DNA of 64,000 bases from Microbulbifer sediminum (GTDB taxonomy: Bacteria > Pseudomonadota > Gammaproteobacteria > Pseudomonadales > Cellvibrionaceae), in the NCBI RefSeq assembly GCF_021729035.1, contig NZ_JAJSAP010000004.1, positions 248,001-312,000 of the forward strand, read 5' to 3'. Below, one piece after another: positions 10,044 to 35,953 of the stretch; the first letter of the stretch is position 1, and each line of letters starts with the position of its first letter. The notes beneath the pieces were generated by a model. It ran no database searches. It saw only the letters and a list, made by a program, of their open reading frames with translations, and was not told the origin of the DNA. A program made the translations under genes and the position numbers.

Positions 10044-10562
10044 TCAGTGCATGCGCGCAGAGGGCTTGCGTGTCGGCTCGCACTCGCGCTCGAGGGTATG
10101 GACCAGGTCGCGGAAGGTCTCCGCATTTTGCTCGTTCAGGCTCATCAGCACCCGGTGGGCCTCCAGCACTTTCTCGCGCGCAGCACACTCGTCCGGGGTG
10201 TTGCAATGCAGCGGCTGCGGTTCGCTGCCGTAATCGCGCTGCTCGTCACTGATCTCGATCAGCGCATCAAAGCCCATGGCATCGAGAAGGTGGCGTATCC
10301 CCGGGTCGGCACTGAGCGCCAGGGGTTTCTGGCAACCCCGGTCCAGGGCTCGGATGGCGACCTTGGCCATCAGGCCGAGGGTGGTGCTGTCGACCCCCCT
10401 GGCATCATGCAGGTCGAACACCACATCGTTGAAGTCCTCATGCGTGAACATCTTATCGATAAAAGTGTCGAAGGACGTGCACAGGTTCAGCCGCACGTCG
10501 CCCACCAGTTTGATGACATAAACACCCTCGTGGGCGCCGACCATAATTTGCCCGGACTGCAT
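10044..10562 (-). CDS. STAS-domain anti-sigma factor antagonist, HsbA-like
   Basis: A 172-residue cytoplasmic protein with an N-terminal STAS domain (about residues 5-105) and a helical C-terminal extension. The phosphorylatable site is in GVDSTTLGLM (Ser59, Thr60/61). STAS antagonists bind an anti-sigma factor when unphosphorylated and are inactivated by its kinase activity. The gene lies 211 bases downstream of a receiver-PP2C phosphatase gene on the same strand, the arrangement seen for HsbR-HsbA (Pseudomonas) and CrsR-CrsA (Shewanella), where the phosphatase output controls this protein and, through it, stress or motility genes. The ATG at 10562 is used because AGAGG stands five bases before it; a GTG five codons upstream is weaker. 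Confidence 0.75.
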   Translation of the reverse strand: MQSGQIMVGAHEGVYVIKLVGDVRLNLCTSFDTFIDKMFTHEDFNDVVFDLHDARGVDSTTLGLMAKVAIRALDRGCQKPLALSADPGIRHLLDAMGFDALIEISDEQRDYGSEPQPLHCNTPDECAAREKVLEAHRVLMSLNEQNAETFRDLVHTLERECEPTRKPSARMH

Positions 10563-10773
10563 AACAACCTCTGGCACGCCGGTCAGGAGCGGAACAGCTA
10601 CTGGGGCGGCGGCGAAAGTTTATCGACAGGGCACTGTGTCAACGCGTTTTCATCGCGCTGCAATCACAGTGCAACTTTGATGCATAAATCGGGCGGAGCT
10701 TACTCCTGCATACCGGCAGTGACAAGCTCTGGCCGCCAACAAGCCGGACCATCCGGTCACCGGCGTGCTCCCG

Positions 10774-11955
10774 CTAGTCCTGGCGAACCGTCAATATGGT
10801 AACGTCATCCGGCAGCTCCTCGGAGGTATCCACGTGCAGGGCCCCGCACAGGGTGTCCAGGTCGCCGCGACTCTCGTTAATCTTTTGCAGCAATTGTGCC
10901 TCCCGCTGTAACAGGTCCCCCTGCAACAGTTCCAGGACCCCGTCGGAGCAGGCAACCAACCGCCAGCTGGTGGGCAGGCTGGCCCGCAAGACCTGCCAGT
11001 TGCCCTGCTCGAACAGGCCCAGGGGCCGGCCCTTGCCAGGCAACCACTCGGCCCCGGCCGACGTCACCAGGGCCGGCATGGGGACCTGGCCGGCCACGGC
11101 GTAATGCAGTTTACGCGCCCGGCTGTCGACAACGCCGACAAACATACTGGCGTGCTTGTCGAGGTGGGTGGAGAGCAATTCCCGGTTGATCAGCTGGAGA
11201 ATTTCGAGGAGATCCGAGTCCAGGGACTCCAGGCTGGCAAAGAGCGGCTTCTCCCGCAGCAGGTGCATAATGCTGTGCTTGATCAGCGCCGTCACCAGTG
11301 CCGATGAGACACCGTGGCCCGAGACATCGACCAGGTAAAAGGCGACAAAACGCTCCCCGAACAGGCCGTAATCGATGAAATCGCCGCTCAGGTAGAGAGA
11401 AGGCACGAGCCGGTAGGCGGCCTCGATATTGCCCGGGTACTTGTAGGGTGTGCGCGGCAACAGGTGCTGCTGCAACAGGCGCCCGGCTTCCTGGTCCCGC
11501 TGCAGCACCTCGACATGCTCGTGCAGCTCCCGGTTGCGCTCCTCGAGCTGCTCGCGGTACTCGTGATTCTGGCGTGCCAGTGCCTCAGCGTCGGTGATAC
11601 GGGTTACCGCGTGCTCGATAACCGCTTCGTCCTCGATGGGCTGCAGGAGGTAGTCGCTGGCCCCAAGGCGCAGGGCCTGGACCACATCACTCACTTCGCT
11701 GTTGGAGGCGATCACCACCACAGCAGCGTCGGGGGATAAGTGCTTGATCTTGCGCAGTACCTCCAGCCCACCCATGTCGGGTAGGTGCAGGTCGGTAATC
11801 ACCACGCGGTAGAAACCGGGAACAAAGCGGCCGATCCCCTCCAGGCCGGTTTCCGCCTGGTCGACCTCAAATCCCAGGCGAGTGAGGCTGCGCCGCACGA
11901 ATTCGCGCGACGCGCCATCAGATTCAATCAGTAGCAGGCGCTGGCGGTCAGGCAT
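10774..11955 (-). CDS. Response regulator with PP2C-type phosphatase output, HsbR-like
   Basis: A 393-residue protein with an N-terminal receiver domain (about 1-125, phospho-acceptor Asp55 in ITDLHLPD, acidic pair near Glu11/Asp13), a coiled-coil linker (about 128-160, NHEYREQLEERNRELHEHVEVL) and a C-terminal SpoIIE/RsbU PP2C phosphatase domain (about 165-393). The PP2C metal-site acidic residues appear in SGDFIDY, DVSGHG, ACSDGV and PDDVTIL. The receiver lacks the usual invariant Lys of the KP motif: the sequence reads LLQPIED, with Gln105 in that place, so switching may be altered. Likely partner and substrate is the STAS protein encoded just downstream. No HptB-type gene is in view. It starts 36 bases from the MlaA-like stop on the same strand. 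Confidence 0.85.
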   Translation of the reverse strand: MPDRQRLLLIESDGASREFVRRSLTRLGFEVDQAETGLEGIGRFVPGFYRVVITDLHLPDMGGLEVLRKIKHLSPDAAVVVIASNSEVSDVVQALRLGASDYLLQPIEDEAVIEHAVTRITDAEALARQNHEYREQLEERNRELHEHVEVLQRDQEAGRLLQQHLLPRTPYKYPGNIEAAYRLVPSLYLSGDFIDYGLFGERFVAFYLVDVSGHGVSSALVTALIKHSIMHLLREKPLFASLESLDSDLLEILQLINRELLSTHLDKHASMFVGVVDSRARKLHYAVAGQVPMPALVTSAGAEWLPGKGRPLGLFEQGNWQVLRASLPTSWRLVACSDGVLELLQGDLLQREAQLLQKINESRGDLDTLCGALHVDTSEELPDDVTILTVRQD

Positions 11956-11991: not shown

Positions 11992-13152
11992 TCAACTGTC
12001 GAAGACATCGGGTTCGTCGGCAGCATCGCCACCGCTTTCATTCGCCGGTCCGGCCGGTTCCTCAACGGTACCGGCATCTTCGCCGCTACCAAATGGGTCA
12101 CTGTCGTCCGCGGCGGTATCTGCGTCACTGCCGCCACCACCGCCAAAAGGATCATCATCTCCACCGAACGCGTCGTCTTCATCGCCGAAATCGTCATCTA
12201 CGTTACCGTCGTTGATGAGGAAATCGCGGCGCTGCAGATAGGCGTCGCGCAGCAGGACATAACGGTCGCCCTGCAACAGGGATTCGGTCTTCAGCAGGCT
12301 GGCCCGGGTCTGGGTCAGGTCCGTGAACCGCAGGCTGTACCGGGTCTGGTTGTGGTCAACATAGGATACCGGGTCGGTGTAATAGTCCACCGCCATGCTC
12401 GGCACGCCGCGCACCGTTGACGGGCCCAGGAAGGGCAGCACCAGGTAAGGACCGGAGGGCACGCCCCAGACGGCCAGCGTCTGGTCAAAATCCTCGCCAT
12501 CGGTTGGCTCCAGGCCCACATGCTCAGCCACATCGAACAGCCCGGCAACACCCACGGTGGAGTTGATCAGGAAGCGGCCGGCGCCGTTACCCGCCTCTCC
12601 CCACTTCCACTGCAGTACGCTGTTGAAGGAATTGGTGATTTCCAGCAGGTTGCCGAAAAAGTTACTGACGCCATGCTGCATGAAAATCGGCGTTACCTGG
12701 CGATAGGTAACAGCCACCGGCTTCAACACCCACCGATCTGCGGTGTCGTTGAAGCGGAATACGGCGCGGTTGAACCCCTCCCAGGGATCGCGCGCCACGG
12801 GATCCTGGCCGCCGGAGAACTCTTCAGCGGGGTCGAAACCGTACTCGTCCTCAAGGCTGGAATCAGTGGATGCTCCTGCAGTCGATGTATCGTCGTCCCC
12901 TCCTTCAGCAAAGGGATCTGCCTCCCCCGCCTCGGCGGTATCGCTGGCAGAGCCATCATCGGTGGGGGCTGCGGCGGACTCACCGGTACCAGAGTCGACA
13001 GGCTGGTCCGCCGGCTCATCCCCAGGCTGCCCTGCAGCCTGGACTGCGGCGCCTTCCGCAAAGGGGTCCTCCTGGGCGGCTTGCGCCAGTACAGGACTGG
13101 CAGCCAGCAATGTTGCCAGCAACCAAGGCGATTTTACTGTGCGTCCAAGCAA
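11992..13152 (-). CDS. mlaA: MlaA-family (VacJ) phospholipid transport protein, no lipobox
   Basis: Homologue of the outer-membrane component of the Mla retrograde phospholipid-trafficking system. The conserved MlaA core spans about residues 115-320: DPWEGFNRAVFRFNDTADRWVLKPVA, GVSNFFGNLLEITN, GRFLINSTVGVAGLFDVAEHVGL, FDQTLAVWGVPSGPYLVLPFLGPSTVR. It starts at a TTG preceded by AGGAG. The signal peptide ends at VLAQA with no cysteine, so it is not a standard lipoprotein, unlike canonical MlaA. The core is flanked by long acidic, low-complexity extensions carrying a repeated DPF motif (DPFAEGA, DPFAEGG, DPFGGGG, DPFGSGE). Usual MlaA is about 250 residues; this one is 386. No other mla gene is in the window. 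Confidence 0.85.
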   Translation of the reverse strand: MLGRTVKSPWLLATLLAASPVLAQAAQEDPFAEGAAVQAAGQPGDEPADQPVDSGTGESAAAPTDDGSASDTAEAGEADPFAEGGDDDTSTAGASTDSSLEDEYGFDPAEEFSGGQDPVARDPWEGFNRAVFRFNDTADRWVLKPVAVTYRQVTPIFMQHGVSNFFGNLLEITNSFNSVLQWKWGEAGNGAGRFLINSTVGVAGLFDVAEHVGLEPTDGEDFDQTLAVWGVPSGPYLVLPFLGPSTVRGVPSMAVDYYTDPVSYVDHNQTRYSLRFTDLTQTRASLLKTESLLQGDRYVLLRDAYLQRRDFLINDGNVDDDFGDEDDAFGGDDDPFGGGGGSDADTAADDSDPFGSGEDAGTVEEPAGPANESGGDAADEPDVFDS

Positions 13153-13308
13153 GCCACTGCTCCTCTAATCATTCACCCGGAAGTTGCGCAAATTCTACCG
13201 CCGCCCGGGTATGCAGGCCACCCTTGGCAGCATAGCACCTGCCCGGGTTACGGTTTCTGTCAAAGATCAGGCAGTATCGGGCAAGCTGACGGGGAGATTC
13301 CACCAGTG

Positions 13309-14103
13309 CTATTCGAGGGGTTCCAGCCCCGCAATCACACCAGCCTGCAGCAACTGCTGCATAAGGGACTCACCGAAACCTACTACTGCTGACACATCGC
13401 CGTGGTTCATTTCCGCGGCGAGGTCTTCGAGCAGCGCCCGCCCGGTTTTGTTCCCAGGCTCCGCCAACTGTAATAGTCGCGCGGTTACGGCATTGATTTC
13501 CATGAACCCCACCTCATCCTCACGATTCCGGTATACCAGCAGGAAGGTGGGGTCTGCCGGCGGCTCCTGTGGCTGGAAGCCGGCTCCGATCATATGCACC
13601 GGGAAGCGGTAACTCAGGCTCCATGCCAGTGGCGACACCACCGGCACCTGTGCCAGCACATCGCCTTCCAGGTCAAGCCCGCCGGGCAGCTGGGCCGGGT
13701 TGACATCAAGCGCCAGCTCTACCCATTCGTAATGCGCCAGCTCCAGCAGGAAGGGCGGATCCGATTCCTGCGTACAGCGCTCTTCCTGCAGGTAGTGCAG
13801 GAACTCCTCACTGATTTGCAGGAAATAGGGGCTGCGCGAGGCATGGTGATGGACAAAATCCCGCACCATCCTGTGCCAGGCCTCATCACTGTACAGGCTC
13901 CGCAACACCGGAAAACCACTGGCGATAAAAGACTCGATATTGTTGTAGATAAGGTCGCGATAGATGCCCATACGGCGGTCTTCGATCTCCGCCGGGGCCT
14001 CATTCTCTACAGGGTTGCGCAGGTGCGCAGCGAACCGGCGCTGCACTTCGGCAAAGTGCGACGCCCCCGAAATGGCACGTTTTTCATCGGTACGCGCGGG
14101 CAT
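13309..14103 (-). CDS. hvfC: HvfC/BufC-type RiPP partner protein (DUF2063)
   Basis: A 264-residue protein with an N-terminal DUF2063 domain ([35 protein letters not shown], about residues 20-75) and a C-terminal region with a ferredoxin- or winged-type fold of uncertain role. In HvfABC/BufABC systems this partner presents the precursor peptide to the MNIO enzyme. The ATG at 14103 follows AGGAGGG at ideal spacing and lies 20 bases inside the end of hvfB, so translation is coupled. Upstream in-frame codons at up to 14265 would lie inside hvfB and have no comparable ribosome-binding site. The downstream neighbour is mlaA; no DoxX-type hvfD follows. Confidence 0.85.
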
Positions 14104-14980
14104 GGGCCATCCCTCCTGGCGCACTCGCACTGCTTTCAGGCATTGCTGCTCCCGCTGCCCCAGCCTGGAGTTGGCGCACATGTCCCACCTCCTGCACCAG
14201 TTCCCGCAGCGGCGGGATATTGAAGTCCCTCTCCAGCAAGGTGGGGAAAACGCCAAAGTGCGCATAAGCTTCCTGCAGCAGCTCCCACACGGGGTCGATT
14301 ACCGGCGCGCCGTGGGTATCCACCATCAGGTCTTCCGCCTCATTGAAATGGCCCGCCACATGCGCGTAGCGGATCCTTGCTCCGGGAAGCCCACGCAGGA
14401 ACTCCACTGGATCGTAGCGGTGATTGATGGCATTCACGTAGATGTTGTTGACGTCCAGCAGCAGATCGCAGTCCGCCTCCTCCAGCACGGCGTTGATGAA
14501 TTCCAGTTCGGTCATTTCCTGGGCCGGTGCCGCATAATAAGAAACGTTTTCCATCGCTATGCGCTGCCCAAGCACATCCTGGACCTGGCGAATCCGACCG
14601 GCTACATAAGTCACCGCCTCCGGCGTAAAAGGAATCGGCAGCAGGTCGTACAGGTGGCCGTGGTCGGAGCAATAGCTGAGGTGTTCACTGTAACAACGGA
14701 TACCGTGCTCGCGGATAAACCCTTTGACGGACTTTACCAGCTCCAGGTCCAGCGGGGACGGAGAGCCTATTGACAGTGACAGACCGTGAATAACGAACGG
14801 GTAGCGCTCGGTATATTCGCGGAGCCAGCGACCGTACCGCCCGCCGACATTGATCCAGTTTTCCGGTGCAACCTCAAGGAAGTCAACCGCACCGGGTGGC
14901 ATTTCCTCCCCCATCATGGAGCGGCGCAGGCCGAGCCCGGCGCCACTTACAGGGTATTCAACGGTCTTGCTAGTGATCAT
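14084..14980 (-). CDS. hvfB: MNIO-family RiPP-modifying oxidase (DUF692), HvfB-like
   Basis: A 298-residue TIM-barrel enzyme of the DUF692 family, now called multinuclear non-heme iron-dependent oxidases. They use iron and oxygen to convert Cys residues of a precursor peptide into oxazolone/thioamide or related copper-binding groups. The iron-ligand pattern is visible in order: [10 protein letters not shown] (His), YSEHLSY (Glu-His), AMENVSYY (Glu), [15 protein letters not shown] (Asp, Asn), YAHVAGH (His), VDTHGAPV (Asp, His) and LLERDFNIP (Glu). The ATG is preceded by AAGAGG. It lies 81 bases downstream of the Cys-repeat precursor gene and overlaps hvfC. The precursor next door strongly supports this assignment. 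Confidence 0.92.
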
Positions 14981-15061
14981 ATTGCCTCTTCTGCTGTTGC
15001 CAGCAGTGGGAGCGGCAGGGGCGGGGCTACGCCCTACCCCCGCACGGGGACCATGCGGACA

Positions 15062-15400
15062 TTATCCGCCGCATTTACCCTCACCACATTTACCTTCTTT
15101 TTTCTTACCTTCTTCGCCGCACTTACCTTCTTTTTTCTTACCTTCTTCGCCGCACTTACCTTCTTTTTTCTTACCTTCTTCGCCGCACTTACCCTCTTTT
15201 TTCTTGCCTTCTTCGCCGCATTTACCTTCTTTCTGCTTGTCGTCGCCGTGCTCACTCAGCATGGCCAGGTTGTAACCGGAAGACAGCTCTTCGGCCGCGA
15301 AGGGGTTGGCGCTGCCCACACCGGCAGAAGCGTTCATGGATGCCGAAGCGATAAAAGCCGCACCAACTGCCGCGGCCAGGGGCAAATTCTTCTTAGTCAT
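15062..15400 (-). CDS. hvfA: HvfA-type Cys-repeat RiPP precursor peptide
   Basis: A 112-residue exported precursor. MTKKNLPLAAAVGAAFIAS is a signal-type N-terminus ending at NASA (about residue 26), as in BufA/HvfA leaders, followed by a short conserved linker ANPFAAEELSSGYNLAML. The C-terminal half contains six EGKCG motifs, mostly in an 11-residue repeat EGKCGEEGKKK, with one Cys per motif. EGKCG is the core motif modified by HvfB/HvfC in known systems, where the modified Cys chelate copper. The start is supported by AAGGAGAG five bases before the ATG. It is the first gene of hvfA-hvfB-hvfC. Cys modification and copper binding are inferred from the family, not from this sequence. Confidence 0.9.
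   Translation of the reverse strand: MTKKNLPLAAAVGAAFIASASMNASAGVGSANPFAAEELSSGYNLAMLSEHGDDKQKEGKCGEEGKKKEGKCGEEGKKKEGKCGEEGKKKEGKCGEEGKKKEGKCGEGKCGG
15087..15235. repeat. 33-bp tandem repeat within hvfA
   Basis: Four full head-to-tail copies of a 33-bp unit (15087, 15120, 15153 and 15186) plus a partial fifth, each encoding the 11-residue unit EGKCGEEGKKK on the minus strand. The middle copies are almost identical at DNA level while the outer ones carry synonymous changes, as expected from slippage or unequal recombination. Copy number sets the number of metal-binding Cys in the peptide. Confidence 0.95.
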
Positions 15401-15471
15401 AACAACTCTCCTTTTAATATCCTAATGTACATCAATCCACGCTGACGGAGCGCTTATGCCCGCCTGCCCGG

Positions 15472-15502
15472 ATTATAACCAGCAATCCCATGGAGTGGTC
15501 AC
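15472..15502 (-). promoter_or_regulatory. Candidate sigma-70 promoter of hvfABC
   Basis: A perfect TATAAT on the minus strand (15472-15477) lies 72 bases upstream of the hvfA start. A weak GTGACC stands 19 bases further upstream as a possible -35. The spacing is longer than ideal, and no operator was recognised. Confidence 0.3.
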
Positions 15503-15704
15503 GGGCTGAGACCAGCAGTATCCCGAAAGCATTCAGCATCCGCGGGTACGTATCTCTGTGTCTCCCGGGTACAGTCGCGGGCCATCGGCGTTTGTTACAG
15601 TCCTGACCAGGATTTACTTCCCTGACCTGTGCGCTGGCGCAAACTCCCGGTTCAGGAGCCACCCGGAATCATGACTGTATGGGGAAGGGGGAACCCGCGA
15701 GCAA

Positions 15705-15745
15705 ATAAAGAAAAACCGGCCCGCGCACTGAATGCAGCGGGCCGG
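15705..15745 (-). terminator. Rho-independent terminator of hrpA
   Basis: On the minus strand a perfect 9-bp GC stem (15745-15737 pairing with 15724-15716) with a 12-base loop is followed directly by TTTTTCTTT. It sits about 150 bases beyond the hrpA stop. Confidence 0.8.
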
Positions 15746-15891
15746 CCACCGGAACTCCGGCGATAGCGGATGGACAGAACATGAAAAAAACCACAATGAC
15801 CGCCGGAGCCAAAAGCGGGAGCGGTCACCTTCCCTGGCGCAGGCGCTACCCAAACCCCGACAGCCGTTTCCGTCAATGCTGTATACGGCCG

Positions 15892-18800
15892 TCAGGGCAG
15901 ACTGGATTGCTCCAGTTCACTCCAGAGTTTGCCGAGGCGCTTACCGGATACCGGCATCAGCATTTTCAGTGACTGTGCAAACAGGGAGACGCGAAACTCC
16001 TCCAGCATCCATCGGTACTGGCGCAGCTCCGGCTCAGAGGCCATCACGCGCGGGGAGTGTTGCTCGGTCAGTGCCAGGAACGGCTCTGCCGCCTTGTGCC
16101 ACTCGGCCTGCAAACGCCGGTCGCGGTTGGGGTCCAGCGCGGCTTTCTCCAGCCTCAACTCGATGCCCTTGAGGTAGCGGGGGTACTGGCGCAACCACTC
16201 GAGCGGCGTGTCGAACAGGCAGCCCCGGTAGAAGAGCCGCTGCAACTGGTGCTGGATATCCCCCACCGCCATCGCCACTGCCAGGTTCTTCTGCTGCTTG
16301 ATCTGCTTGCGCAGGGGCACCAACTGGCCGAGCGCCTTTACCAGCAGGTCGGCAATTTCCTGCGCCACCGCAACCAGCTCGCCACTGCGCTCCAGCGCCG
16401 AGAGGAACTCTGCCTCGGTCCGCGGCCAGCTTTCATCAGGCCAGAACAATTCGCGCACCGCCGCCAGCAGGATGTCGTCGGCCACGTCTTCCCGCCGGCC
16501 CAGGTCGGCGGCACTGAGGCCCAGCTCCTTGCCACGCAGCAATTCCTTGCGCAGGTACTTGACCGGCTCCGGCAGGTGCAGAAGCGCCAGCCGGCAGGTA
16601 CCGGCCCGGGACAGTCGCCAGGCCTCGCGGGGGTTGTCGAGCAGCTTGAGGGAGACACTCTCGCGCTCTTCCTGCAGCGCCGGGTAGGCGCGCACTTTCA
16701 GGCCGCCCTGTTCCAGGGTATGGGTTTCCGGCAGGTTGCCGAAGTCCCAGCGAGTGATGCCGTCCCGCTCGAAACCGTCACCGGCGGAGGCCAGCTCGCG
16801 CTGGACACGGTCTTTATAACGCGACTGCAGGGTGGGCAGGTCCCGGTCCTGGTCGATCAGCTCACCAGACTCGTCGAGCACCTGGATATTGAAACGATAG
16901 AAATCCTCCAGCGACTGCTCGGCGGACTCCCACGCTTCTGCCGGCAGTTCAATGGCCGTCTGTCGGTGCAGCTCGTGCGCCAGCGCCCGCCACAGCGGTG
17001 TATCACCAGCCTGCATCCGCGGCAATGCACGGTCCACGGCCGCGGGTACGGGGACAAAGTATTTGCGCCACTGCTTGGGCAGCGCCTTCACCAGCGCGAT
17101 ACATTTATCGCGCAGCAGCCCGGGCACCAGCCAGCTCAGTCGCGCCGCCGGCACCTGGTGCAGGGCGCCCACCGGCACCTGGATACTCACGCCATCATCC
17201 ACGGCCCCGGGCTCGAAGTGGTAGCCAAGCGGGAACTCGATGCCGCCGGCCCGTAAGTCATCCGGGAATTGCGCCTCACCCACATGCTCAGCGCTCTGCT
17301 GCATCAGCAGGTCGCGGGGGATAAACAGGAGTTCGGGATCCTCTTCCTCCACCTTCTTGCGCCAGTGCTCGAAACCCGCCAGGTTGACGATATCGGCCGG
17401 GATGCGCTCATCGAAAAAGCGGAACACCACCTCGTCGTCCACCAGGATGTCCCGACGGCGCGACTTGGCCTCCAGGTCACCCAGCTCCTCCAGCAGATCG
17501 AGGTAGTGACGGAAGAAACGCCCCTTGCCCCGACGATTCTTGTCGTAGCGCTGCTCTACCAGAGCCTGGCGGATAAACACTGCGCGCGCGGTCTGGGGGT
17601 CCAGCTTGCCAAAGTGGATCCGGCGCTTTTCCACCAGTACCAGGCCGTAGAGGGAAATTTTTTCATAGGCCATCACCTGCCCGGCGCGGGCGTCGTAGTG
17701 GGGCTCAAAATAATTGCGTTTCACCAGGTGCTCGGCAGCCGCCAGTACCCAGTCCGGCTCGATTTTCGCCACGGTGTGGGCGAACAGGCGGCTGGTCTCC
17801 AGCAGCTGTCCGGCCACAATCCAGCGCGGCGGTTTCTTGTACTGCCCGGAGCCCGGGAAAATATGAAAACGCCGGTTGCGACAGCCTATGAATTCCTTGT
17901 TTTCATCCCGCACACCGATGTTGCCCAGCAGGCCGGGCAGGATCGCCCGGTGCACCGTGGCGTACTCGGCGGGCTCGCGGTTTTCCTTCAGCTTCAGTTC
18001 GCGACTGGCCACCCGGAGCTGGTGGTGGATATCCCGCCACTCGCGCATGCGCAGCCACGACAGGAAGTTTTTCTGGCACCACTTGCGCAACTGGTTTTGG
18101 CTCAGCTCCTGGCGCTGCTCCTCGAATCCGTCCCACAGCTGTACGAAAGAAAGAAAATCGGATTTCTCGTGGCGCCATTGGCGGTGTTTTTCATCCGCCG
18201 CCTGGCGTTTCTCCGCCGGGCGCTCGCGCGGGTCCTGCACTGCAAGCGCACTGACAACCACCAGCACCTCGCGCAGGCAATCGTGCTCGCCCGCCGCCAG
18301 CAGCATGCGGCCCAGCTGCGGATCCAGGGGAAGGCGCGACAGGGCGCGACCAAGCGGCTTTACCTGCCCGTGACTATCCACGGCCTGCAGCTCTTCCAGC
18401 AGCTTGTAGCCGTCATTGATCAGGCGCGGGTCGGGCGGGTCGACAAAGGGGAAATTGTGGATATCGCCGATGCGCATCTGCAGCATCTGCAGGATCACCG
18501 CGGCCAGGTTGGTACGCAGGATCTCCGCATCGGTAAATTCCGGCCGCTGCTCGAAATCGCGCTCCTCGTACAGGCGCACACAGACACCGGCACTTACCCG
18601 GCCACAGCGACCGGCACGCTGGTTGGCGCTGGCCTGGGAGATCGCCTCTACCGGCAGGCGCTGGATCTTGCTGCGGTAACTGTAGCGACTGATTCGCGCC
18701 GTGCCCGGATCGATCACGTAGCGGATGCCCGGCACGGTAATGGAGGTTTCCGCCACATTGGTGGCCAGCACGATGCGGCGGCCCTTGTGGCCGTGGAACA

Positions 18801-19827
18801 CCCGGTTCTGCTCTGCCAGGCTCAACCGCGCATACAGGGGCAACACTTCCAGCTGGGGAATCTGTGCATCCCGCAGCGCTTTGGCACACTCGCGGATTTC
18901 CCGCTCGCCGCTCATAAACACCAGGATATCGCCGCCGCGCCGGCTGCTGCCCTTTTCTTCATGTAACAGCTCTTCCACTGCCGCGATCACCTGTTCACTC
19001 AGGTCCGCATCGCTGTCCGCGGGTGGCCGGTAGTGGATTTCCACCGGGTAGGTACGGCCGGAAACCTCGATGATCGGTGCATCATCGAAATGCTTCGAGA
19101 ATTTTTCCAGATCAATGGTGGCGGAGGTAATGATCAGTTTCAGGTCCGGGCGCTTCGGCAGCAGGGTCTTGAGGTATCCCAGCAGGAAGTCGATGTTGAG
19201 GCTGCGCTCGTGGGCCTCATCAATGATCAGGGTGTCGTACTTGTTCAGCAACGGGTCCCGCTGGATCTCGGCCAGCAGGATGCCGTCGGTCATCAGCTTG
19301 ACGTGGGTGTGCTCGTCGCTGTGGTCGGTGAAGCGGACCTGGTAGCCCACGGAGTGACCGAGCGGTTGCTGCAGCTCCTCGGCGATACGGTTGGCCACGG
19401 TCCGCGCGGCGATACGCCGGGGCTGGGTATGACCAATCTGGCCATAGACTCCACGCCCCAGCTCCAGGCAGATTTTCGGCAGCTGGGTGGTCTTGCCGGA
19501 ACCGGTCTCGCCGGCCACCACGACCACCTGGTTCTGTGCAATCAGTTCGGCGATCTCATCGCGGCGCGCCACCACCGGCAGCTCTTCCGGCCAGGTGACC
19601 TCAGGCAGCTTGTCCCTGCGGGCGGCAGCCAGTGCCCGCGAGGCCTCCAGCTCCTTGCCCAGCTTCTCCAGCATGCGGTCCGCCGGCTTACCCTCCCGCA
19701 ACCGTCGCCGGGCGCTGTCCAGGGTCTTGCGCAGGCGATGGCGATCGCGCCCCATGCACTCGGTGATGCGGGGCCCGAACTCCTCGCTCAGGGCTTTCAG
19801 GGCGGCGGTGGTTTCGGTGTGACTCAT
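15892..19827 (-). CDS. hrpA: ATP-dependent RNA helicase HrpA
   Basis: A 1311-residue DEAH-box RNA helicase, involved in mRNA processing and ribosome rescue in relatives. Motifs in order: an N-terminal helical segment; Walker A GETGSGKTTQ (about residue 105); TQPRRIAARTVANR (Ia); IIDEAHERS (motif II, about residue 203); TSATID (III); FMSGEREI (IV); VLATNVAETSITV (V); QRAGRCGR (VI, about residue 415). The helicase-associated and OB-fold regions follow, then a long C-terminal region (GRTYP/DUF3418 type) ending in LGKLWSELEQ. Length agrees with E. coli HrpA (1300). It is monocistronic, with a clear terminator downstream and a repeat array upstream. Confidence 0.97.
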   Translation of the reverse strand: MSHTETTAALKALSEEFGPRITECMGRDRHRLRKTLDSARRRLREGKPADRMLEKLGKELEASRALAAARRDKLPEVTWPEELPVVARRDEIAELIAQNQVVVVAGETGSGKTTQLPKICLELGRGVYGQIGHTQPRRIAARTVANRIAEELQQPLGHSVGYQVRFTDHSDEHTHVKLMTDGILLAEIQRDPLLNKYDTLIIDEAHERSLNIDFLLGYLKTLLPKRPDLKLIITSATIDLEKFSKHFDDAPIIEVSGRTYPVEIHYRPPADSDADLSEQVIAAVEELLHEEKGSSRRGGDILVFMSGEREIRECAKALRDAQIPQLEVLPLYARLSLAEQNRVFHGHKGRRIVLATNVAETSITVPGIRYVIDPGTARISRYSYRSKIQRLPVEAISQASANQRAGRCGRVSAGVCVRLYEERDFEQRPEFTDAEILRTNLAAVILQMLQMRIGDIHNFPFVDPPDPRLINDGYKLLEELQAVDSHGQVKPLGRALSRLPLDPQLGRMLLAAGEHDCLREVLVVVSALAVQDPRERPAEKRQAADEKHRQWRHEKSDFLSFVQLWDGFEEQRQELSQNQLRKWCQKNFLSWLRMREWRDIHHQLRVASRELKLKENREPAEYATVHRAILPGLLGNIGVRDENKEFIGCRNRRFHIFPGSGQYKKPPRWIVAGQLLETSRLFAHTVAKIEPDWVLAAAEHLVKRNYFEPHYDARAGQVMAYEKISLYGLVLVEKRRIHFGKLDPQTARAVFIRQALVEQRYDKNRRGKGRFFRHYLDLLEELGDLEAKSRRRDILVDDEVVFRFFDERIPADIVNLAGFEHWRKKVEEEDPELLFIPRDLLMQQSAEHVGEAQFPDDLRAGGIEFPLGYHFEPGAVDDGVSIQVPVGALHQVPAARLSWLVPGLLRDKCIALVKALPKQWRKYFVPVPAAVDRALPRMQAGDTPLWRALAHELHRQTAIELPAEAWESAEQSLEDFYRFNIQVLDESGELIDQDRDLPTLQSRYKDRVQRELASAGDGFERDGITRWDFGNLPETHTLEQGGLKVRAYPALQEERESVSLKLLDNPREAWRLSRAGTCRLALLHLPEPVKYLRKELLRGKELGLSAADLGRREDVADDILLAAVRELFWPDESWPRTEAEFLSALERSGELVAVAQEIADLLVKALGQLVPLRKQIKQQKNLAVAMAVGDIQHQLQRLFYRGCLFDTPLEWLRQYPRYLKGIELRLEKAALDPNRDRRLQAEWHKAAEPFLALTEQHSPRVMASEPELRQYRWMLEEFRVSLFAQSLKMLMPVSGKRLGKLWSELEQSSLP

Positions 19828-30841: not shown

Positions 30842-31366
30842 ATGAATAAAGGTCGGAAAACGCTTCTCGAAAAGCTGTTTGCCGAACACGGCCAGGCGCT
30901 GGTGCGCTTTGTGACCCGCATTGTCAGGAATACTGAGGATGCCGAGGACATTGCCCAGCACGCCTACCTGCGCCTGCAGAAGCTCAGCGACGAGAAAGAG
31001 CTGGACAACCCGCGGGCGTACCTTTACCAGATCGCCAACAACCTGGCCGTAGATCAACTGCGCCGCGGCCGCCTGCACATGGATTATGTCAGCCAGCAGA
31101 CTCCGGCAGAGGGAGAGCCCCCGGCTGACGACCACGCCGACCACCAGTCCCCTGAACGGGTGCTTGCCGCCCGCCAGCAACTGCAGTCTATATACGAGGC
31201 AATGGACAGCCTGCCGCTGAAGTGTCGCCAGGCATTCCTCCTGCACCGGACTCGCGGCCTCTCCTACAACGAGATTGCCCGGGAAATGAACACATCGGTG
31301 AGCAGTGTCGAAAAATATATCCTGCAGGCCCTCAAGACCTGCCGCCAGAGGGTCACTCCCCCCTGA
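30842..31366 (+). CDS. FecI-like ECF RNA polymerase sigma factor
   Basis: A 174-residue sigma factor with region 2 (about residues 15-80: LVRFVTRIVRNTEDAEDIAQHAYLRL, then NPRAYLYQIANNLAVDQLRRGR) and region 4 (about 115-168: MDSLPLKCRQAFLLHRTRGLSYNEIAREM with SVSSVEKYILQALKTCR). This is the FecI class, normally activated by a FecR-type transmembrane regulator. The next genes are a FecR and an STN-domain TBDR. The FecR start is 503 bases downstream, longer than the usual few bases, so a separate promoter for fecR is possible. Confidence 0.93.
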   Translation: MNKGRKTLLEKLFAEHGQALVRFVTRIVRNTEDAEDIAQHAYLRLQKLSDEKELDNPRAYLYQIANNLAVDQLRRGRLHMDYVSQQTPAEGEPPADDHADHQSPERVLAARQQLQSIYEAMDSLPLKCRQAFLLHRTRGLSYNEIAREMNTSVSSVEKYILQALKTCRQRVTPP

Positions 31367-31869
31367 CCACGGCCTGTGCCCCAGCGACTACACTTCCCGA
31401 CGACAGTGCCAGGCAAAACCAGTCAGGGAATCTTCATAATCCACTGCTACCGTGCGCCTACGGCCACGACCGCCGGCACACCCAGGCGGGAACCATCAAC
31501 CGGACGGTGCTGTCGCGGACTAAGCCGGCCAGGGCGCCTGCGCGCTGTGCCAGCAAAGGCTTCCGAGAGCCAGCGCACAAGCGTTGTGCGCAACGAGTTA
31601 GATTTTTCACAAAAACACTTGAGGGATCCACTGTGCCGGTCGTCTCATCTCAAGAGCCGGTCATCTGAGCACAAAAAGCGGGCCCGGCAACACAGGAAAC
31701 GCTAAGATTCAGCGCAATTGATAGAAGTTATTGCGCGAATGGTTAGCAGGACGCAGAAAAACGCGCCAATAGTGCACTTTGCAGATAGAATGCGCCGTTT
31801 TGGGGCGGCCAGCCGGCCACCCCAGCTGCAGGCAGGCGTAACAGGATTCTTAAGTAAACAGGATAAACA
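31367..31869. other. Long gap between sigma factor and FecR genes
   Basis: A stretch of 503 bases with no convincing gene. It contains an imperfect palindrome CGCACAA-GCG-TTGTGCG near 31575 and AT-richer sequence from about 31595. The distal part may hold an ECF-dependent promoter for fecR, but I cannot point to a -35/-10 pair with confidence. Confidence 0.5.
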
Positions 31870-32922
31870 GTGGTGAACTCAGCGGGCGGACAGACAATTC
31901 CCAGCGATGAGCAGCTCGACCAGGCCTGTGCCTGGATCGCGCGCCTGCGCTCGGATTCTGTTTCCGCAGCCGACCGCCGCGAGTTCACCCACTGGATCGG
32001 CAGCGCCGAGGCAAATCGCCGCGCATTCGATGAAATGTCCAGCCTGTGGGGCGACCTCGGTGCCCTGCGTCACATGCCGATCAACGAACTCTTCCCGGAA
32101 AGCCTCCCCAGTGCGTCGAGCCGCCCCGCTCCTGCAGCCCGCAGCACGGCCACTGCGAAAAGCACCGGCTGGAGCTGGCCACAATGGCTGACCGGGGGAG
32201 GCCTGGTAGCCGCATGCCTCGTTGTGACCCTATGGGTAGGCAACCAATGGCTGGCCGGGGAAGCTGTAAATCAACAGGTTTACGCCACCGTCGTTGGCGA
32301 GACCCGCACTGTCACCCTTGCGGATGGCACGCGGGTACAGCTGAATACCAACTCCGAACTCCAGGTGAGCTACAGCCGCGAGGAGCGCCACACCGCCCTG
32401 CTCCGCGGCGAGGCGTTTTTCGATGTGGAACGCCAGACATCACGGCCATTTATCGTTGCGGCAGGCAAGGCCAATATCCGCGTCCTGGGCACTGAATTCA
32501 ATGTGGAACGCAACCCGGATAACACCCGCGTCTCCGTTACCGGGGGCGTGGTCTCGGTGAGCGAGTCCAGCAGCGCCAGCGGCCTGCGCCCCGAATCTGT
32601 CAAACTGGTCAAGAACCAGAAAGTCAGCGTATCCGGCAGCGGCCTGAGCCAGGTCAGTACCACTTCCGCTGACGAAGCGCTGGACTGGACCCGCGGTGTG
32701 CTCGTGTTCGACCGCACGCCCCTCGAGGACGCGCTGGAAGAGCTGAACCGTTATCTGTCAGTACCGGCAGAGGCTGAGACCAGTGTGCGCGAACGCAAGC
32801 TCTCCGGCACTTTCGAGCTTTCCGATCCGGACAGCGCCCTGAAAGCCATTGCCGCGGCCCTGGACCTGCGGGAAGATCGCAGCAACCCTGACCTGACTCT
32901 CTTGTCTCCCAAGCCTAACTAA
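31870..32922 (+). CDS. FecR-type anti-sigma/signalling regulator
   Basis: A 350-residue inner-membrane regulator that transmits the TBDR signal to the sigma factor. The cytoplasmic N-terminal anti-sigma domain (DUF4880-like, about residues 15-60) ends in RRAFDEMSSLWGDL. One transmembrane helix follows at about 110-130 (WLTGGGLVAACLVVTLWVGN). The periplasmic FecR domain (about 135-230) contains VTLADGTRVQLNTNSEL and the diagnostic GEAFFDVE, and a C-terminal STN-like module (ALEELNRYLS, KLSGTFELSDPDSALKAIAAAL) interacts with the receptor in relatives. Two GTG codons (31870 and 31873) follow AGGA and either could be the start. Confidence 0.92.
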   Translation: MVNSAGGQTIPSDEQLDQACAWIARLRSDSVSAADRREFTHWIGSAEANRRAFDEMSSLWGDLGALRHMPINELFPESLPSASSRPAPAARSTATAKSTGWSWPQWLTGGGLVAACLVVTLWVGNQWLAGEAVNQQVYATVVGETRTVTLADGTRVQLNTNSELQVSYSREERHTALLRGEAFFDVERQTSRPFIVAAGKANIRVLGTEFNVERNPDNTRVSVTGGVVSVSESSSASGLRPESVKLVKNQKVSVSGSGLSQVSTTSADEALDWTRGVLVFDRTPLEDALEELNRYLSVPAEAETSVRERKLSGTFELSDPDSALKAIAAALDLREDRSNPDLTLLSPKPN

Positions 32923-33037
32923 GTTATAAAACTGCCCGGGCGGATAAATATTAAACAGCTTCCCCGCTGATTGCCGCCGATCACTATAAATCCTGATAAA
33001 AAGCAGCGGCCTCCCGGTCAGACGGGCCGCCGTTGGC

Positions 33038-35953
33038 GTGGAACGGGCAAGCAGATTGATTAAACGGCTCTGGGCCTCCCTGTCACTGGCGACATTTGCA
33101 GCGCTACCCGCGTCTGCCGATACCGCGTGCCCGGCCTCCGGAATCCAACTGCCCGCCGGCAATCTCTCCAGCGCCCTGATCACGCTGGGCCGGCAATGCA
33201 AGATTTCCATCCTGGTACAGACTTCAGCGGTACATGGCTACACAGTGCCAAGCCAGAACCTGCCATCCGAGGATGGGGACTTTGTGGCCGCACTGGAGCA
33301 GTTGCTTGGCAACTCCCCATTTGACTACCGCCGCATCGGTCCCGCGGCAGTGGCCGTGGTGGCCCGCACGGGATCCCCCGTCGAATCCGCTGACGACGCC
33401 CCCCCGTCGCCCACGGAAGAGATCACGGTTACCGGCCGCAGCCTGACCGGTACCCACCTGCGGCACAAGCGACTCAGCAGCTACGCGCCTATCGACATCC
33501 TGGCCCAGCCGGAACTGGAAATCACCGGTGCCCAGACGATCTCCGAGCTCCTGAAATTCCTGCCGGCGGTCTCCGGCAACTCCACCAGTACATCGGTCAG
33601 TAATGGGGGCGACGGTACGGCCAATGTCACATTGCGCGGATTACCCGCCAGCAACACCCTGGTTTTGATTAACGGGCGACGGATCGTAAGCAACGGTTTT
33701 GGCGGCGAGACCGCTGACCTGAACACCATTCCCCTGTCCGCCGTCGACCGGATAGAAATCCTCAAGGATGGGGCCTCGGCCGTATACGGTTCGGACGCCA
33801 TCGCCGGCGTGGTCAACATTATTCTGCGCCGTGACTTCGAGGGGCTGTCCCTGAACACCTACTTCGGCGCCGCCGAACAGGGCGACCAGCAAACCACTTC
33901 GAATCACCTGACCTGGGGCCAGGCATTCGAACAGGGCCACCTGATGTTCAGCATCGCCCATTACCAGCAGGGAGAACTGAATAGCCGCGATCGCGCACTG
34001 TCCGCCACCGCGGACAATCGCAGCAGGGGCGGTACCGATCTGCGTTCCGCCGCCTCTCCCGATGGCTATATCGCCCTGCCCGATGGACAGGTCGTGACCA
34101 ATGCTGGCAGCGGTGGTTACCGCGAATGGACCCAGGAAGACCGCTATGACTACAGTGAATTTACCACTGCAGTAGTGCCTTCAGAGCGCTGGTCGGCCTA
34201 TATGGCCGGGGAGCTGGCTCTCGAAGACAACAGCACACTGTTCGCCGAAATCATGGGTGTGCAGACGCAGGCGGAAACAATCTTTGCCCCGACGCCGGTA
34301 TTCACCCGTTTCGATAATGGCGACCTGCAAATCAGTGCAGACAACACCTATAACCCGTTCGGCCAACCGCTCACCGATGTGCGCAAGCGTGTGCTCGAGC
34401 TGGGCCCACGCGAGCAGGAAAACCAGACTGACACCTGGCGTGCCAACACCGGCGTGAAAGGCGCCTGGGACAGCTGGCAATGGGAGCTGGCCCTGAGCCT
34501 GCACTACACCAAGGCCGAGGAATCGCTAAGCAACCTGATCGACCCTGACCGCCTGTCCGCAGGATTAAAGGGAGCTGATTGCAACGCTGATCCCGACTGC
34601 GTTCCGGTTAACCTACTGGGTCCCAGTGGCAGTATTGATGCAAACCAGCTGGACTTTATTCGCGCACAGAGCCGGGTGACCGGGGAAACCGAGATGACGT
34701 CGCTGACATACATCACGGACGGTATTCTGGCCAGTTACGGGGCTGGCGACATTCCCGCGGCGGCAGGTATCGAACTCCGCAGCGAAGCCATTGACTTCCG
34801 CTCCAGCGACGCGGGCAAGCTGTCCAAGATCGGTGGTATCGCCGCAGGTGCGGCCGAGGGCACCCGACTGGTCGCCGAGGCCTTTACCGAAATCTCGATA
34901 CCATTGCTGGAAGAACAGCTCTGGTTCGATGCTGCCCTGCGCGTGTCCGACTACAGTGACTTCGGCAGCACCGCCAACCCGAAAATGGCGCTGCGCTGGA
35001 AAGCTTTTCCGTCACTGATGATTCGCGGCACCTACGCCACAGGTTTCCGGGCCCCGAACCTGGTTGACATGAACCAGACCGGCTACCAGAGCCAGGAATT
35101 CCTGTTCGACCCCTGCACCCGGGAAAATGCGGACACGCTGCCCGGCTGTACCGGCATTGCAGACAGCTCCCGTATCCAGTTCCTTACCGAATTCGGCGGG
35201 AACAGCGACTTGCAGCCGGAGACCTCTGACAACCGGACCATTGGCCTGGTCTGGACCCCCGAGGTGGCAGAGGGATTCGCGGCAACACTGGACCTGTTCG
35301 ACATTCGCCAGAATGATGTGATCGACACCAGCCCCCAGTACCTTATCGACCAGAATGCCAATCGCGGCCTGTTCTCCAGCCGGGTGCTGCGCGATGCACA
35401 GGGCGATATCACCAAAATTATCGCGACCCGCCTCAATATCGGCGCGCGCGAAGTGCGGGGGCTCGACCTGGCATTGCGCTATGAAAAGTCTTCCGAAAAG
35501 CTCGGCCAGCTGCGCTGGTCTTTCAACGCCAGCCACCTGCAGCGCTACCTGAACCAGCCGGCGCCCGGCGCCGAAATCGAGGACCTGACCGGCACATTTG
35601 TCGATCCGGCCAGTGGCGGTGCCGGCTCGCTTCCGGAGTGGAAGGCCAACACCGGCATATACTGGAAACGCAAACGCTGGGAAGGCGGGTATACCATCCA
35701 TTATGTGGACACGCTGGAAGAAACCTTCACCCGTGGCTCTGTGGCAGTAACGCGCAAAATCGACAGCTGGACCAGCCATGATATGCAGGTTGCCTACGCC
35801 ATGCCGCAGGGCATCCGTGTAGCGGTGGGCGTCGACAACATGTTTGACCGAGCCCCGCCTTTTGCAGCAACCGCATTCAATGATAATCACGACGGTCGCA
35901 CCTACGACCTGAGTGGACGCTACTGGTATACAACCCTGTCCTACAGCCTGTAG
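33038..35953 (+). CDS. TonB-dependent receptor with STN signalling domain
   Basis: A 971-residue outer-membrane receptor of the transducer class. After a signal peptide ending near ASADT comes an STN domain (about 30-110: LSSALITLGRQCKISILVQ), which in FecA-type systems signals to FecR. A TonB-box-like EEITVTGRS (about 127) leads into the plug, with ITGAQTISELLKFLPAV, LVLINGRRIV, VDRIEILKDGASAVYGSDAIAGVVNII. A 22-strand barrel follows. The end, YWYTTLSYSL, is not strictly aromatic-terminal. It starts with GTG at 33038; a TTG at 33056 is a possible alternative. Its position after the sigma factor and FecR supports a cell-surface signalling trio. The ligand is unknown. Confidence 0.9.
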   Translation: MERASRLIKRLWASLSLATFAALPASADTACPASGIQLPAGNLSSALITLGRQCKISILVQTSAVHGYTVPSQNLPSEDGDFVAALEQLLGNSPFDYRRIGPAAVAVVARTGSPVESADDAPPSPTEEITVTGRSLTGTHLRHKRLSSYAPIDILAQPELEITGAQTISELLKFLPAVSGNSTSTSVSNGGDGTANVTLRGLPASNTLVLINGRRIVSNGFGGETADLNTIPLSAVDRIEILKDGASAVYGSDAIAGVVNIILRRDFEGLSLNTYFGAAEQGDQQTTSNHLTWGQAFEQGHLMFSIAHYQQGELNSRDRALSATADNRSRGGTDLRSAASPDGYIALPDGQVVTNAGSGGYREWTQEDRYDYSEFTTAVVPSERWSAYMAGELALEDNSTLFAEIMGVQTQAETIFAPTPVFTRFDNGDLQISADNTYNPFGQPLTDVRKRVLELGPREQENQTDTWRANTGVKGAWDSWQWELALSLHYTKAEESLSNLIDPDRLSAGLKGADCNADPDCVPVNLLGPSGSIDANQLDFIRAQSRVTGETEMTSLTYITDGILASYGAGDIPAAAGIELRSEAIDFRSSDAGKLSKIGGIAAGAAEGTRLVAEAFTEISIPLLEEQLWFDAALRVSDYSDFGSTANPKMALRWKAFPSLMIRGTYATGFRAPNLVDMNQTGYQSQEFLFDPCTRENADTLPGCTGIADSSRIQFLTEFGGNSDLQPETSDNRTIGLVWTPEVAEGFAATLDLFDIRQNDVIDTSPQYLIDQNANRGLFSSRVLRDAQGDITKIIATRLNIGAREVRGLDLALRYEKSSEKLGQLRWSFNASHLQRYLNQPAPGAEIEDLTGTFVDPASGGAGSLPEWKANTGIYWKRKRWEGGYTIHYVDTLEETFTRGSVAVTRKIDSWTSHDMQVAYAMPQGIRVAVGVDNMFDRAPPFAATAFNDNHDGRTYDLSGRYWYTTLSYSL

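Follow-up and report, generated by a model that had tools for sequence, protein, structure and literature searches.

The closest described system is the mmrABC operon, published in the genus Microbulbifer with a product of the bulbicupramide type (PMC12538549). There, an MmrA homologue lost four hydrogens at each of its six EGKCG cysteines, tentatively read as thiooxazole formation, and a modified MmrA fragment bound Cu(I). The cluster occurred in all Microbulbifer strains examined, and its role was left open by Tang et al. 2025 (PMC12538549). In the same source, MmrA, MmrB and MmrC were undetected in the VAAF005 proteome at 0, 0.1 or 0.2 mM CuSO4, and mmr coexpression slightly helped Escherichia coli in liquid culture with 2 mM CuSO4. 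For the Haemophilus counterpart, the oxazolone/thioamide structure first assigned to the product has given way to 5-thiooxazole, and the class is called captophorins (PMC13097082); a 2026 preprint states the same revision (PMC13419390). Here we analyse the mmr locus in a stretch of 64,000 nucleotides from Microbulbifer sediminum (contig NZ_JAJSAP010000004.1, positions 248,001 to 312,000), hereafter the window. We consider it likely that the whole is best explained as a captophorin-class operon for a Cu(I)-binding ribosomally synthesised and post-translationally modified peptide (RiPP), embedded in a dispersed regulon of an extracytoplasmic function (ECF) sigma factor, with envelope oxidation as the likely trigger. 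The locus, its chemistry and copper binding are already known; the regulation is the new part.

ECF control of related gene sets has been described in three other lineages. Haemophilus RpoE2, paired with the 67-residue zinc-binding anti-sigma (ZAS) protein HrsE, answers hypochlorous acid (HOCl); its targets are msrAB, mtsZ and a doxX, COG3220 and DUF2063 gene cluster (PMC7907618), which probably corresponds to the hvf cluster. Neisseria sigma-E has the consensus GTMAGBWTT-N12/13-CGTCTAAH, is autoregulated and governs the NMB2140-2145 operon together with msrA/msrB (PMC2893595, PMC3240639); the Neisseria anti-sigma, MseR, belongs to the ZAS proteins and has Cys4, His30, Cys34 and Cys37 (PMC2893595). 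Caulobacter sigma-F controls operons of DUF2282, DUF692, DUF2063 and DoxX genes from a GTAACC-N16-CGAA promoter under heavy-metal stress (PMC3511200). In the open-licence literature, covered by titles and passages, we found no report linking an ECF sigma factor to an operon of the multinuclear non-haem iron-dependent oxidative (MNIO) enzymes in Microbulbifer.

The mmr operon and its unlinked partner gene

The operon consists of the following genes.

15062..15400, minus strand: mmrA/hvfA, precursor of 112 residues, a putative Sec-type signal peptide followed by six EGKCG motifs
14084..14980, minus strand: mmrB/hvfB, MNIO (DUF692) enzyme of 298 residues, assigned by Pfam, NCBIfam and alignment to 3bww
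13309..14103, minus strand: mmrC/hvfC, DUF2063 partner of 264 residues, assigned by Pfam and NCBIfam

On its family profiles the locus is an HvfABC-type MNIO RiPP operon and in itself ordinary. The genes lie in the order mmrA, mmrB, mmrC, with mmrC overlapping mmrB by 20 nucleotides, just as an initial annotation of the bare sequence had described them. MmrB scores 350 bits against PF05114 (cut-off 25) and 438 bits against NF003818, the HvfB family MNIO-type RiPP peptide maturase (cut-off 360). MmrC reaches 327 bits against NF050145, the HvfC family (cut-off 142), and matches DUF2063 (95.3, cut-off 27.2) and NGO1945_C in Pfam, profiles that mark it as the DUF2063 (PME1/HvfC) partner; its N terminus is putatively of the RiPP recognition element type. 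The earlier placement of both proteins beside HvfB and HvfC is thus borne out, as is the full set of metal ligands expected in the enzyme. MmrB residues H65, H100, E144, D176, N179, H207, D221, H223, E250 and D252, which we take to be the metal ligands and catalytic base, stand opposite identical residues of PDB entry 3bww in a phmmer alignment.

The secreted precursor with six EGKCG motifs was likewise recovered as annotated. It exceeds the cut-off of the short NCBIfam domain KCGExKCG_twice, NF050137 (25.0 bits against 19.5), and gave no match in Pfam. Because it scores only 17.7 against the HvfA equivalog model NF050188, with a cut-off of 95, MmrA is classed by its sequence as a precursor of the HvfA kind and not as an HvfA equivalog. 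A methanobactin-type assignment was rejected, with MmrB giving only 37 bits against the MbnB model TIGR04159 (cut-off 325) and the partner being HvfC, not MbnC.

A homology search of the genome found mmrB as its single MNIO gene. HvfB homologues (E up to 1e-80) are present in 47 of 48 Microbulbifer genomes, and mmrB is therefore no chance open reading frame (ORF). Among the 80 named contigs kept, the best 15 are all from Microbulbifer (L032-L046), with 73-85% identity over the best segment. The one genus genome lacking an HvfB homologue at this threshold (G043) also lacks the ECF factor and HvfX described below (E up to 1e-20), so that the whole system is absent from it.

Together, the three genes would make a secreted, probably periplasmic, Cu(I)-binding RiPP of the captophorin class. 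MmrC (HvfC) would deliver the precursor to the iron enzyme MmrB (HvfB), which would convert the EGKCG cysteines to 5-thiooxazoles, and the peptide would be exported by Sec. Thiooxazole chemistry and Cu(I) binding have been seen in homologues and are expected here from family membership. The copper-binding peptide system proposed in the initial annotation agrees with the published Microbulbifer homologue, which is modified at six cysteines and binds Cu(I) as a fragment (PMC12538549); the oxazolone/thioamide groups named in the annotation are outdated in view of the revision to 5-thiooxazole (PMC13097082).

The annotation had also remarked that no DoxX (hvfD) gene follows the operon. This is correct for the immediate neighbourhood but not for the genome, as a DoxX gene preceded by an mmrA-type promoter element lies on another contig (G000:C7:158002-158622). 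Its product scores 214 bits against NF050144, the HvfX family Cu-binding RiPP maturation protein (cut-off 80), and homologues occur in 45 of 48 genus genomes (E up to 1e-20). On these sequence matches we identify the unlinked hvfX as the missing DoxX partner of the mmr operon.

The locus shares with the published mmrABC/bulbicupramide system its genus, gene order, EGKCG core and genus-wide conservation; the parts of that publication used here name no regulator or DoxX partner, both of which are proposed in the present work (PMC12538549). With hvfABCX/oxazolin of Haemophilus influenzae it has in common the HvfB, HvfC and HvfX families of NCBIfam, six EGKCG motifs and control by an ECF sigma factor with a ZAS anti-sigma, as proposed here and as described for Haemophilus in PMC7907618. 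In contrast, Haemophilus hvfX lies in the operon and not on another contig, and the present precursor stays below the HvfA equivalog cut-off.

Promoter element and candidate ECF sigma factor

Two promoter-like features lie upstream of mmrA.

15574..15599, minus strand: ECF-sigma-type promoter element TGTAACA-N15-CGAC, first base at 15599, 199 nucleotides before the mmrA ATG
15472..15477, minus strand: second, sigma-70-like TATAAT box, 77 nucleotides before the mmrA ATG

Across the genus the distal element takes the form TGTAA[CGT]A-N15-CGAC, with a spacer at times one longer, and stands 167 to 276 nucleotides before the mmrA start codon. Its candidate reader is a sigma factor of 214 residues encoded away from the operon (G000:C11:364899-365540), which scores above the cut-offs of NF009196 and TIGR02943. 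Directly after this gene follows one for a 78-residue protein with C4, H30, C34 and C37 (C-X25-H-X3-C-X2-C), which fits the pattern C/H-X23-26-H-X3-C-X2-C and reaches 76 bits against NF052368 (cut-off 50). Neisseria MseR carries its cysteines and histidine at the same positions, 4, 30, 34 and 37 (PMC2893595). The likeness of the pair to Haemophilus RpoE2 and Neisseria sigma-E is one of architecture and family models rather than of direct sequence alignment.

ECF homologues are found in 38 of 48 genus genomes (E up to 1e-20). Upstream regions were scanned for the element with spacers of 16-18 within 450 nucleotides, with antisense strands and mononucleotide shuffles as controls. Among genomes readable by the script, the element precedes mmrA in 37 of 45, the ECF gene in 35 of 38 and hvfX in 33 of 45, with antisense counts of 0, 2 and 0 and shuffle rates of 0.0013-0.0022. 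When one mismatch is allowed, every readable upstream region of the ECF-bearing genomes has it, for mmrA (37/37) as for the ECF gene (38/38) and hvfX (38/38); ECF-lacking genomes have it before mmrA in 1 of 8 and before hvfX in 2 of 7 cases. Restricting the one-mismatch form to 300 nucleotides leaves 37, 37 and 38 upstream regions, against an antisense background of 4, 3 and 0 and shuffle rates of 0.016-0.029.

The presence of the element follows that of the sigma factor gene closely. The mmrA count leaves out G045, in which the script found no precursor; G053, which failed the script's precursor rule, was added with a hand-set start, giving 46 readable genomes. Of these, 37 have both the mmrA element and the ECF gene, nine have neither and none has one alone (Fisher test p 9e-10, a value that ignores kinship). 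For hvfX, 32 genomes have both, one has the element only, six the ECF gene only and six neither (p 0.0007). Kinship was approached with an mmrB gene tree of 47 rows in place of a species tree. On it, the mmrA element and ECF presence each change six times, and the three independent pairs that can be drawn on supported branches all agree. The whole tree allows six pairs, which would agree as well, because no row is discordant. The tree-based link between element and ECF gene is suggestive, not decisive.

A tighter pattern applied to whole genomes gives 65 matches against 19 for the reversed control in the 38 ECF-bearing genomes, and one match against three in the ten ECF-lacking genomes. Of the 17 sigma-factor loci in the present genome, the candidate ECF gene alone has the element. 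The ECF gene and the element might still co-occur through common descent only, with another regulator reading the element, and the fact that only three independent pairs fall on well-supported branches leaves some room for this. It appears highly improbable, however, in view of the element before the ECF gene itself, the genome-wide excess confined to ECF-bearing genomes, the single positive among the sigma-factor loci and another lineage (L310, below) in which ECF gene, promoter and hvfAB genes are adjacent.

The proximal box raises a different explanation, namely low constitutive expression from TATAAT, to which the distal element would matter little. In agreement with this, TATA[AC]T is retained within 160 nucleotides of mmrA in 43 of 45 genomes, including six of eight that lack the ECF factor. 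However, inspection of the mmrA upstream regions by eye revealed no -35 box at a constant distance from it, and the distal element is present in 37/37 ECF-bearing and 0/9 ECF-lacking readable genomes. The Mmr proteins were, moreover, undetected in laboratory culture (PMC12538549). We therefore regard constitutive expression as improbable.

A second ECF sigma gene lies within the window itself (30842-31366); it was considered as the cognate factor and rejected, as it is without the element. By eye, it is followed by FecR-like and TonB-dependent receptor ORFs (30842-35953 in all), which gives the group the look of an iron-uptake signalling set.

Proposed dispersed regulon and its likely trigger

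In the present genome, the N15 form of the element occurs at four sites: before mmrA, the DoxX gene, a DUF547 gene and a VTT (TVP38) gene that is followed by a mercuric-reductase-like oxidoreductase gene. The tighter scan across the genus yielded 66 matches, of which 40 were fetched, the other 26 being own-genome or mmr sites. Thirty of the 40 stand before a recognisable gene. Twelve precede the ECF sigma gene, four mmrA and four msrP; three precede a gene for a membrane protein that weakly matches RclC, two a thioredoxin and DsbD-like pair, and one each an exported msrA, hvfX, arsS, DUF547 and VTT. Each group was named from one scanned representative, the compared members being similar in BLAST. 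The representatives score above their NCBIfam cut-offs for MsrP (480 vs 207), MsrA (191 vs 108) and ArsS (474 vs 300), whereas the RclC match is partial (37 vs 275), and the thioredoxin and the mercuric-reductase-like oxidoreductase fall below the cut-offs; the DsbD-like protein had no match and was named by eye. The common promoter element, the joint presence and absence and the gene neighbourhoods together suggest a regulon. In single genomes the element also stands before ORFs of 151 residues (L196) and 136 residues (L180), which are possible further members or chance matches.

Among 142 other genomes of the class, 14 carry an ECF homologue (E up to 1e-30), with 15 places in all, nine of which were inspected. 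At one of them (L310), the ECF gene, a gene for a ZAS protein (68 bits, cut-off 50), the element as TGTAAGGATT-N12-CGTCTATA, an EGKCG precursor gene and an MNIO gene stand in a row. At another (L306), an EGKCG precursor lies within 1.5 kb of the ECF homologue on the other strand, and three (L307, L313, L314) have relatives of the Microbulbifer regulon oxidoreductase, VTT or ArsS genes nearby. At the remaining four of the nine inspected places, no regulon-type neighbour was recognised. The element as a universal hvfA promoter was rejected, since GTAA-N17-CG[AT]C is missing upstream of hvfA at 53 of 55 loci outside Microbulbifer.

The arrangement resembles known ECF systems to different degrees. 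Like Neisseria sigma-E, the candidate factor would be autoregulated, to judge from the element at its own gene, and has methionine-sulfoxide reductase genes in its predicted regulon; the Neisseria sigma factor is encoded within the NMB2140-NMB2145 operon, whereas operon, sigma factor and hvfX are dispersed here (PMC2893595, PMC3240639). In the Microbulbifer element CGAC would serve as the -10 box, and the -35 box has mainly GTAA in common with Neisseria. In Caulobacter, with its bufferin operons, a single ECF factor (sigma-F) likewise governs MNIO, DUF2063, DoxX and YedY/MsrP-type genes, but with DUF2282 precursors and a DUF1109 anti-sigma in place of EGKCG and ZAS (PMC3511200).

On this basis, the ECF factor would read the element at mmrA, at its own gene and at the unlinked hvfX and, elsewhere in the genus, at methionine-sulfoxide reductase and other envelope redox genes, while the ZAS-type anti-sigma would hold it until release. 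The trigger is most likely oxidation of the envelope (by hypochlorous or hypobromous acid or by peroxide) rather than copper as such, in which case the peptide would take up copper that damaged proteins release. An oxidative trigger would explain both the silence of MmrA-C in culture and the lacking copper response.

Plain copper detoxification, induced through an unseen copper regulator or through metal sensing by the ECF factor itself, in the manner of Caulobacter, is the main competing explanation. It draws on the Cu(I) binding of the homologous peptide and the slight benefit to E. coli at 2 mM CuSO4 (PMC12538549), on the Caulobacter operons switched on by heavy metals (PMC3511200) and on a meningococcal counterpart that is unresponsive to oxidants (PMC2893595). 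We nevertheless consider it rather unlikely, since added copper up to 0.2 mM brought no detectable MmrA-C in VAAF005 (PMC12538549), and since methionine-sulfoxide repair genes belong to the common regulon. In addition, CueR-like inverted repeats, the one copper-regulator type scanned, were found in the last 250 nucleotides before mmrA in 0 of 45 upstream regions in the strict form and in 1 of 45 in the loose form. The initial annotation saw no copper regulator beside the locus; the missing regulator is most likely the unlinked ECF/ZAS pair.

More tentatively, we hypothesize that the thiooxazole peptide is part of a response to reactive halogen stress (HOCl or hypobromous acid, HOBr) rather than a copper-response product, which seems possible but short of probable. 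The ECF/ZAS switch would then couple methionine-sulfoxide repair with peptide production, and the peptide would recapture Cu(I) from oxidised periplasmic proteins or itself scavenge the oxidant. HOBr is made by haloperoxidases on algae and sponges. If this holds, a hidden oxidant trigger would explain why a genus-wide cluster stays silent in culture.

Several observations weigh against the oxidation-triggered ECF regulon favoured here. In the promoter of the present genome's ECF gene the spacer measures 18 and not 17, and this genome taken alone is not enriched in the element (four N15 matches against seven in the reversed control). The three supported tree pairs give a sign-test p of only 0.25. 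One ECF-lacking genome (G055) retains the exact hvfX element, and another (G007) has the one-mismatch element before both hvfX and mmrA; G007 is 80% complete, so the ECF gene may simply have dropped out of the assembly. Ten of the 40 fetched sites lie inside genes or have no recognisable target, and outside Microbulbifer the element precedes hvfA at 2 of 55 loci only. Of the Neisseria consensus, the window copy GTAACAAAC-N12-CGACTG retains only GTAA, CGnC and the distance between them; GTAAGAATT and other copies in Microbulbifer come nearer to it, and the L310 copy from outside the genus fits well (PMC2893595, PMC3240639). Meningococcal sigma-E targets are unresponsive to H2O2, diamide and singlet oxygen, while the gonococcal counterpart genes, as cited in the same source, respond to H2O2 (PMC2893595). 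Because Caulobacter sigma-F answers heavy metals (PMC3511200), a trigger by copper or another metal, acting through the ECF factor proposed here, keeps some probability.

With a candidate sigma factor, a located element, an unlinked HvfX and a predicted class of inducer, the role left open by Tang et al. becomes testable. The results suggest that, in a free-living marine genus, EGKCG copper peptides form part of the defence against envelope stress, in line with what has been reported for the corresponding Haemophilus cluster.

Precursor core, leader and flanking genes

Further features belong to the precursor gene or bound the system.

15323..15400, minus strand: putative Sec signal peptide, mmrA residues 1-26, with an AxA-type end, judged by eye
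15090..15232, minus strand: 33-nucleotide (11-residue) tandem array coding for the core, 4.3 copies with 96% matches in Tandem Repeats Finder
11992..13152, minus strand: mlaA, the next gene downstream and a boundary outside the system (PF04333, 240 bits)
15892..19827, minus strand: HrpA-like helicase gene, the upstream neighbour and a boundary outside the system, from a profile scan

The position of mlaA directly after the operon is as the initial annotation gave it. Within the MmrA core the cysteines are spaced 11, 11, 11, 11 and 5 residues apart, that is, in four single-Cys steps and one terminal pair, whereas the published VAAF005 core consists of three two-Cys cassettes (PMC12538549). The precursor of the relative YPW16 (G018) has spacings of 11, 5, 11, 5, 11 and 5. 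Over 45 Microbulbifer precursors the number of cysteines ranges from 4 to 10, and a single 5-spaced pair is present in seven of them, MmrA of this strain included. A Fontimonas substrate with a single repeat was unmodified and one with a double repeat was modified (PMC13097082), which makes the largely unpaired core found here a useful natural test of cysteine spacing and number. The repeat number may set the copper capacity, as the initial annotation proposed.

Two other precursors depart from this layout. A 193-residue EGKCG precursor from a genome of the same order (L026) has long Thr/Ala/Asp-rich spacers between motif pairs. The G053 precursor (L279 1131-1520), which lies outside the count of 45, has no more than two cysteines and five EGM units, set in a stretch rich in Met and His (HGEGMQ repeats), as if Cys sites had been swapped for Met/His copper ligands; its genome is without both the ECF factor and HvfX.

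The mmrA leader contains further features. The promoter-like block with the TATA[AC]T box belongs to window positions 15400-15520. By eye, many species have a G+C-rich inverted repeat after this block, and some members of the genus have a GGTCTCA-like box about 30 nucleotides upstream of it. A MerR-like 19-nucleotide spacing from xTGACx to TATA[AC]T was likewise noted by eye in some members of the genus and not in the rest, and no dyad was seen. A riboswitch in the 490-nucleotide leader was rejected, as the four Rfam matches in 13000-16200 (E up to 5) all fall well below their gathering scores. An ORF of 35 codons can be read by eye in the leader, and control by upstream ORFs is known for some copper operons. 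Beyond mlaA, a STAS-domain protein is encoded at 10044-10577, next to a response regulator that carries a SpoIIE phosphatase domain (10774-11955); the two make a pair of the partner-switching type.

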